Shown here piece after piece: positions 27,060 through 30,291 of a DNA stretch of 64,000 nucleotides (its first letter is position 1; every line of letters starts with the position of its first letter). The translations under genes were made by a program, and so were the position numbers. The stretch lies in the NCBI GenBank assembly GCA_013204105.1, contig JABMOM010000020.1, positions 62,001-126,000 of the forward strand. Reading direction: 5' to 3'. The notes beneath the pieces were generated by a model. That model had not been told where the DNA came from and did not search any database. It worked only from the letters and a program-made list of their open reading frames with translations. The stretch is from Flavobacteriales bacterium (GTDB lineage: Bacteria; Bacteroidota; Bacteroidia; Flavobacteriales_G; Salibacteraceae).

Positions 27060-27172
27060 GTTTAGATCAGATGAATGATCGGAAATGGGGTAGTGCGGCA
27101 GCCGTGGTAGCCTGGAGGAAATCCTCCCGTATATACAAGCTAATCTTATGGATCATACTAGATGGCATTTCG

Positions 27173-27204
27173 CAAATATACAAACTCTATAAACTTAGTA
27201 GAGT
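27173..27204 (-). promoter_or_regulatory. SLC13 promoter with candidate Rrf2 operator
   Basis: The minus strand has the -7 element TATATTTG (27173-27180). Three bases upstream is the inverted repeat ACTCTA-N9-TAGAGT (27184-27204), which also has AA-N-TT symmetry in its centre. The repeat covers the -10 to -33 interval, where a bound protein would block RNA polymerase. The same half-site pattern recurs upstream of the Rrf2 gene. Confidence 0.6.
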
Positions 27205-27208
27205 ATTG

Positions 27209-27646
27209 CTATTTCTTTTTTGATAAACTGTCTTCAGTGGCAATGATATGGGCTATCGTGGCGGATTTCAAACGTTCAACCGTCTCGTTGCGTACCTCGA
27301 GGAAGGTTTCGCGAATGCCGCATGTCTCCTCATCCTTGCATTCTTCACATCGTTCGTAGTACTTGTAGGTAACGCAGGGTAGAAGTGCAATAGCACCATC
27401 AAAAAGCCGCATGACATCGGCCATGTTGACTTCATTTGGTTCCTTGATCAAATAGTATCCACCACCTTTCCCTTTTTTGCTAGCCAGTACACCGTCTTTT
27501 TTTAGGTCCAAGAGAATGGCTTCCAGAAACTTTTGAGGAATGTGCTCATCATCGGCGATCCTACTGATGAGAATGGGGCCTTCATCTTGGTGCTTGGCCA
27601 GGTGGACCAGCGCCAGCATAGCGTATTTTGCTTTTTTAGAGAGCAT
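27209..27646 (-). CDS. Rrf2-family transcriptional regulator
   Basis: A 145-residue winged-helix regulator: LSKKAKYAMLALVHLAKH and ISRIADDEHIPQKFLEAIL (recognition helix), then the wing KKGKGGGYYL. Cysteines C91, C100, C103 and C109 lie in the region where IscR and NsrR bind an iron-sulfur cluster, so a redox or Fe-S/sulfur-sensing role is plausible; spacing differs from IscR. It lies directly upstream of the SLC13 permease. Matching dyads at both promoters suggest it represses itself and the permease. The ATG at 27646 is six bases from a -7-like TATCTTAG. Confidence 0.92.
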   Translation of the reverse strand: MLSKKAKYAMLALVHLAKHQDEGPILISRIADDEHIPQKFLEAILLDLKKDGVLASKKGKGGGYYLIKEPNEVNMADVMRLFDGAIALLPCVTYKYYERCEECKDEETCGIRETFLEVRNETVERLKSATIAHIIATEDSLSKKK

Positions 27647-27652
27647 AGACCG

Positions 27653-27680
27653 CTAAGATAGTCTAGTTTCTAGATAGACT
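27653..27680 (-). promoter_or_regulatory. Rrf2 gene promoter with candidate autoregulatory operator
   Basis: The minus strand has TATCTTAG (27653-27660), one mismatch from TAnnTTTG and six bases before the ATG. Next to it is the inverted repeat AGTCTA-N9-TAGACT (27660-27680). Half-site, spacer length and placement against the -7 element match the SLC13 promoter dyad. Confidence 0.6.
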
Positions 27681-29925: not shown

Positions 29926-30291
29926 ATGCTTACGGAGAAAAGAATATGCCAGGAGTGCTCGGAGCCTCTCTACGGCAGGGCCGACAAGAAATTCTGCTGT
30001 GATCAATGCAGAAACACGTTCAACAATCGGAACAACAGCGACGTGAATAGGATTGTACGCAACATCAACTATGCATTGCGCAGAAATCGTCGGATACTTT
30101 CGGAATTAAACGATTCAGAGAAGACACGGTTGGAGCGAAATCGACTTATCATGCACGGGTTCAGTTTTAAGTACTTTACCCATACGCGAGCCGCGAAGAA
30201 CGGTACCGTCTATTATTTCTGCTATGAAATGGGCTACGTTCCCTTGGATGAAGAAGATGTGCTAATCGTCAGCAACGAAAGCGTCGGATAA
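29926..30291 (+). CDS. Small zinc-ribbon protein, conserved hypothetical
   Basis: A 121-residue soluble protein with an N-terminal treble-clef-like zinc ribbon: C8 and C11 (CQEC), then C24, C25 and C28 (FCCDQC). A basic helix follows (VNRIVRNINYALRRNRRILSEL) and a small beta domain (GFSFKYFTHTRAAKNGTVYYFCYEMGY). Zinc plus a basic helix suggests nucleic-acid or ribosome binding, but no function is known to me. It meets the next gene tail to tail without a spare base. Confidence 0.8.
   Translation: MLTEKRICQECSEPLYGRADKKFCCDQCRNTFNNRNNSDVNRIVRNINYALRRNRRILSELNDSEKTRLERNRLIMHGFSFKYFTHTRAAKNGTVYYFCYEMGYVPLDEEDVLIVSNESVG

Follow-up and report, generated by a model that had tools for sequence, protein, structure and literature searches.

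Two matching dyads around an Rrf2-family gene in a Flavobacteriales bacterium as predicted operators for sulfate uptake and assimilation

When a regulator gene and the gene of an anion permease behind it carry nearly the same inverted repeat in their promoters, the question arises whether the regulator itself reads both sites, and which physiological process it would control. Such a locus was found in a genome of a Flavobacteriales bacterium (Salibacteraceae), of which a stretch of 64,000 nucleotides, here called the window, was analysed. Sulfate assimilation has well-known regulators in Proteobacteria and Firmicutes, and CymR, the cysteine regulator of Bacillus and Staphylococcus, belongs to the Rrf2 family. 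For Bacteroidota, no description of the present regulator or circuit was found in the open papers searched. From the comparisons given below, it is highly probable that the Rrf2 protein, whose gene lies between the two dyads, uses them as operators; here and in many related species of Bacteroidota, this protein appears to control sulfate uptake and assimilation.

The two dyads pointed out in the initial annotation are exact at their positions (Table 1), and their arms, A(C/G)TCTA, and nine-base spacers agree. The one behind rrf2 begins 4 bp past the stop codon of this gene, with its other end 124 bp upstream of the SLC13 ATG, and the one ahead of rrf2 ends 13 bp upstream of the rrf2 ATG. Their placement upstream of a -7 element, described as the same at both, turned out to be similar but not identical: TATCTTAG overlaps the last base of the rrf2 dyad and is followed by 6 nt and the rrf2 ATG, whereas TATATTTG is separated from the SLC13 dyad by 3 bp. 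With zero mismatches, A[CG]TCTA-N9-TAGA[CG]T matched only these two dyads, in the window as well as in the assembly (3.1 Mb, 96% complete), and both flank rrf2, the sole Rrf2 gene found in this genome. Perfect N9 dyads with 6-bp arms are nevertheless common, with 24 in the window, and the whole genome held 12 matches with at most one mismatch versus 41 for a reversed-pattern control, that is, no excess (the own genome was searched by patterns with mismatches, not by a full matrix scan). Comparison with relatives was therefore needed to make the case. What lies above chance is the pairing of near-identical arms 476 bp apart, together with the conservation of the pair.

Table 1. Features of the rrf2-SLC13 locus, with positions in the window
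Feature	Position	Strand	Role or basis
SLC13/DASS-type anion permease with TrkA_C domains, 601 aa	25254-27059	-	predicted sulfate importer; Pfam
-7 element TATATTTG of the SLC13 unit	27173-27180	-	sequence
Operator dyad ACTCTA-N9-TAGAGT	27184-27204	.	SLC13 promoter, predicted operator
rrf2, Rrf2-family regulator, 145 aa	27209-27646	-	PF02082, TIGR00738, model fold
-7-like element TATCTTAG of rrf2	27653-27660	-	sequence; kept in congeners
Operator dyad AGTCTA-N9-TAGACT	27660-27680	.	rrf2 promoter, predicted autoregulatory site

Within the genus, Rrf2 orthologs were identified in six congeners (77-96% identity) and were not found in six others. The downstream dyad, ahead of SLC13, is kept in all six Rrf2-positive congeners; three of them have an identical copy (ACTCTACTAAGTTTATAGAGT ahead of TATATTTG), two a copy with 2-3 base differences, and the sixth a weaker one that can still be recognised. 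Four congeners have an exact upstream dyad, another has a degenerate one and the remaining one has none. Among the four exact copies, three have both arms changed together, from AGTCTA..TAGACT to ACTCTA..TAGAGT, and such compensatory changes fit the expectation for a site that is read by a dimer. At the SLC13 locus of the four Rrf2-negative congeners examined, neither the regulator nor the dyad was present. The comparison of orthologous promoters, set beforehand as the test on which the operator idea could fail, thus came out in its favour, with a downstream dyad in every Rrf2-positive congener and, across the class, related sites behind orthologous rrf2 genes that often stand ahead of sulfur genes.

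The organisation of the locus also differs between congeners. Four of them carry a DUF2490-type gene between the dyad and SLC13, with its ATG 4 nt past TATATTTG. This gene is gone in the own genome (G000) and in the close relative G009 (window 27060-27183), where an ATG remains at the former DUF2490 start (27168-27166) and a long leader precedes SLC13. The short distances from the -7 element to the ATG, 6 nt for rrf2 and 4 nt for the DUF2490 gene of the congeners, suggest leaderless or near-leaderless transcripts for both. On the other side of the dyad, rrf2, a gene for a 298-aa protein without a Pfam match and a gene for a 373-aa protein form one block in the own genome (27209-29847), which separates SLC13 from a 121-aa gene at 29926-30291. 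Where congeners are Rrf2-negative, SLC13 adjoins a homologue of this 121-aa gene.

Beyond the genus, 80 named orthologous rrf2 loci were collected, 64 of them non-redundant. In about half of these 64, a motif with a consensus near ACTCTAYTAANTTRRTAGAGT stands directly behind the rrf2 stop codon, and 29 of the 64 had no downstream site scoring at least 14. In its centre, ACTAAWTTAGT, the motif is similar to the centre of the IscR type 1 site. A position weight matrix trained outside the family recovered sites downstream of rrf2 in 9 of 18 test loci, compared with hits in none of 900 random windows and none of 540 shuffles; in the reverse direction, 16 of 46 loci were recovered, compared with 12 of 2300 random windows and 1 of 1380 shuffles. 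A scan for near-consensus sites throughout the class hit 14 of 395 genomes, about equal to the reversed control, and gave no enrichment by itself. The motif usually stands a few bases ahead of a TAnnTTTG element, which lies at most 12 bp from the dyad at 22 of 32 sites across the class versus 5.5% of background positions.

When the own family was excluded from training, the held-out matrix ranked the SLC13 site best and the rrf2 site second best in the window. In the own genome, it scored the SLC13 site at 21.2, a site ahead of cysC at 20.6 and the rrf2 site at 11.8, and the other candidates listed reached at most 12.5. The next best matches, 12.5 at C36:126-146 and 12.1 within a long open reading frame, are without sulfur context and were discarded. 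As the rrf2 site scores no better than these two unrelated matches, its assignment as an operator is supported by conservation and position and not by score.

The genes that follow rrf2 and the site across the class encode CysH, CysD/CysN, sulfite reductase, CysE/CysK and TauE/SafE, further DUF2061, peroxiredoxin and DUF2490 proteins and, in several families, SLC13 permeases. APS kinase, CysD, CysN, CysE-like, DUF2061, DUF2490 and peroxiredoxin were confirmed by profiles for representative proteins; CysH, sulfite reductase, TauE and SLC13 were assigned by similarity. Where the neighbours of site-bearing loci could be recognised, most are genes of sulfate assimilation, and predicted sites precede cysCDN in the own genome and CysH, sulfite reductase and CysE genes in relatives; the CysH locus of the own genome had no site. 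The permease behind the window dyad scored above the cut-offs of PF03600 (293.2 versus 31.9), PF00939 (72.1 versus 27) and PF02080, and under that of TIGR00785 (161.3 versus 198.6). Its family and the genes sharing its promoter motif point to sulfate as the likely substrate. The sites ahead of cysC-cysD-cysN and of sulfur genes in relatives strengthen the earlier guess at sulfate. The genus has cysC, cysD, cysN and, in the own genome, cysH (loci L124 and L125). A sulfite reductase of the NIR_SIR type (PF01077) was not recognisable in any of 13 genomes (the own genome and 12 congeners), which leaves the pathway beyond the regulon incomplete as annotated; sulfite may be handled by another reductase or may enter cysteate or sulfonolipid synthesis.

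The genome scan proposed in the initial annotation, which gave no excess at one mismatch, did bring up a third strong promoter site. It lies 56 bp upstream of cysC-cysD-cysN (L124:8929-8949, corresponding to G000:C30:172928-172948), and among the ten one-mismatch matches in the genome it is the only one with a clear promoter context, most others falling within reading frames. The cysC site was present in each of the six Rrf2-positive genomes that carry a cysD locus (own genome counted), and all six Rrf2-negative genomes lacked it, a count from related genomes and not from twelve independent trials. The divergent deoC-like gene and a TAnnTTTG promoter (usually TACATTTG) a short way ahead of cysC are kept in both groups. 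An rrf2-like arrangement, with TAATTTTG as a -7 element abutting the cysC dyad, was considered and dropped, as congeners show that the conserved cysC -7 element is TACATTTG, about 10 nt upstream of the ATG in nearly all twelve genomes, Rrf2-positive or -negative (cysC coordinates of G011 are shifted, a later start codon having been used). From the end of the dyad to this element it is 37-38 bp, and the dyad is centred near -60 from the inferred start. This is not a repressor position and suits an activator or an indirect mode, so that plain repression may not hold at all targets. In a CysD tree, the Rrf2-positive G008 nests among negatives (support 0.62 at the nearest node, 0.92 for the clade), a weakly supported hint that regulator and site changed together more than once in the genus.

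The rrf2 product belongs to the Rrf2 superfamily (PF02082, 115.8 bits versus a cut-off of 30; TIGR00738, 105.8 versus 73.3) and gave the one PF02082 match of the genome. It scored far under the curated values of the named subfamilies, with 70.9 versus 207.55 for the IscR equivalog TIGR02010, 67.5 versus 195 for the CymR equivalog NF047409 and 30.6 versus 182 for the NsrR profile, and RirA likewise; it is best called a member of an unnamed Rrf2 subfamily that appears to work like a sulfur regulator. The four cysteines noted earlier in the Fe-S region of the family, C91, C100, C103 and C109, are indeed present and are invariant in 16 orthologs, with the spacing C-X8-C-X2-C-X5-C. On the basis of these cysteines, the protein may sense Fe-S. 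The predicted structure has a mean pLDDT of 85.9, low in the cysteine loop, and structure comparison gave CymR (2y75) as the best match and IscR as the next.

Compared with known relatives, IscR shares the Rrf2 fold, autoregulation (predicted here) and cysteines in the same loop. It differs in ligand spacing, its C-X5-C-X5-C being found neither in the window protein nor in the 16 orthologs, and the predicted targets here are sulfate assimilation genes, not isc or suf. CymR has in common the fold and sulfur-assimilation targets (predicted here), but CymR of B. subtilis has no cluster and works with CysK as a partner (PMC9338935), whereas the window protein has its four conserved cysteines. RsrR and NsrR of Streptomyces show the same fold as lower-ranked matches and differ in signals and targets; the regulon of ScNsrR is small and its consensus site is 23 bp long (PMC9338935).

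Taken as a mechanism, an Rrf2 dimer would bind ACTCTAYTAANTTRRTAGAGT-like sites. At the rrf2 and SLC13 promoters, the site extends as far as the -7 element, and bound Rrf2 would therefore exclude RNA polymerase and repress both its own gene and the anion permease. At cysC-cysD-cysN, which serves sulfate activation, it may activate or modulate instead of simply blocking. The physiological role would be control of sulfate uptake and assimilation, like that of CymR in Firmicutes. The protein probably responds to the cellular sulfur state, which either its four-cysteine cluster (Fe-S, metal or thiol) or a partner protein would sense. A broader version is put forward only tentatively: the four-cysteine subfamily could be a general sulfate-assimilation regulator with its own operator in much of Bacteroidia, repressing rrf2 and the permease, activating cysCDN from about -60 and sensing sulfur status with a metal or Fe-S site rich in cysteine.

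A different purpose of the same operators has to be weighed as well. The dyads could be Rrf2 operators whose signal and main purpose is Fe-S or redox status, as for IscR or RsrR, sulfur genes being controlled as suppliers or consumers of sulfide. The four invariant cysteines stand where the family binds Fe-S, a peroxiredoxin is first behind the site in many loci, and IscR ranks next after CymR as a fold. On the other hand, the loci examined had no site at suf or isc genes, the NCBIfam IscR score is 70.9 versus 207.55, and the recognised neighbours are mainly sulfate-assimilation genes, which leaves this explanation possible but rather doubtful.

Explanations that separate the dyads from the Rrf2 protein fare worse. 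Another, unlinked regulator governing both genes would be compatible with the data, as the operator role of Rrf2 is itself predicted, but is improbable because the sites are present or absent together with rrf2 in the genus and lie beside orthologous rrf2 genes class-wide. A role chiefly at the RNA level, with the dyad serving as a weak terminator or as a processing hairpin before the next gene, might be expected 4 bp past a stop codon, where a 6-bp hairpin could form; it is very improbable, as the motif also stands ahead of rrf2 and of the divergent cysC, where there is no upstream transcript of this unit for it to end, its A+T-rich arms have no run of T, and conservation extends to spacer positions. 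That common AT-rich dyads near promoters were picked after the fact has the least chance of being true; the 24 perfect dyads in the window and the missing one-mismatch excess over the control would agree with it, but it is contradicted by the conservation in orthologs, the held-out matrix and the third site ahead of cysCDN. The idea of a shared operator is, in turn, supported by this conservation, by the cysC site and by the joint presence or absence of regulator and dyads.

Operator and gene set together form a regulon that is directly testable in culturable genera, among them Psychroflexus, Maribacter, Nafulsella and Pedobacter. Two further observations concern genes near such sites. A peroxiredoxin gene is first behind the site in many Cytophagia-like loci (L059, L060, L062, L067, L076, L081, L119 and L181), that of L060 encoding an AhpC-TSA protein with a 1-cysPrx_C domain, which hints that sulfur control is connected with peroxide defence. 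In another family, a near-consensus site lies 222 bp upstream of a gene with a rhodanese domain (L178, 1500-2046), possibly a further sulfur target.
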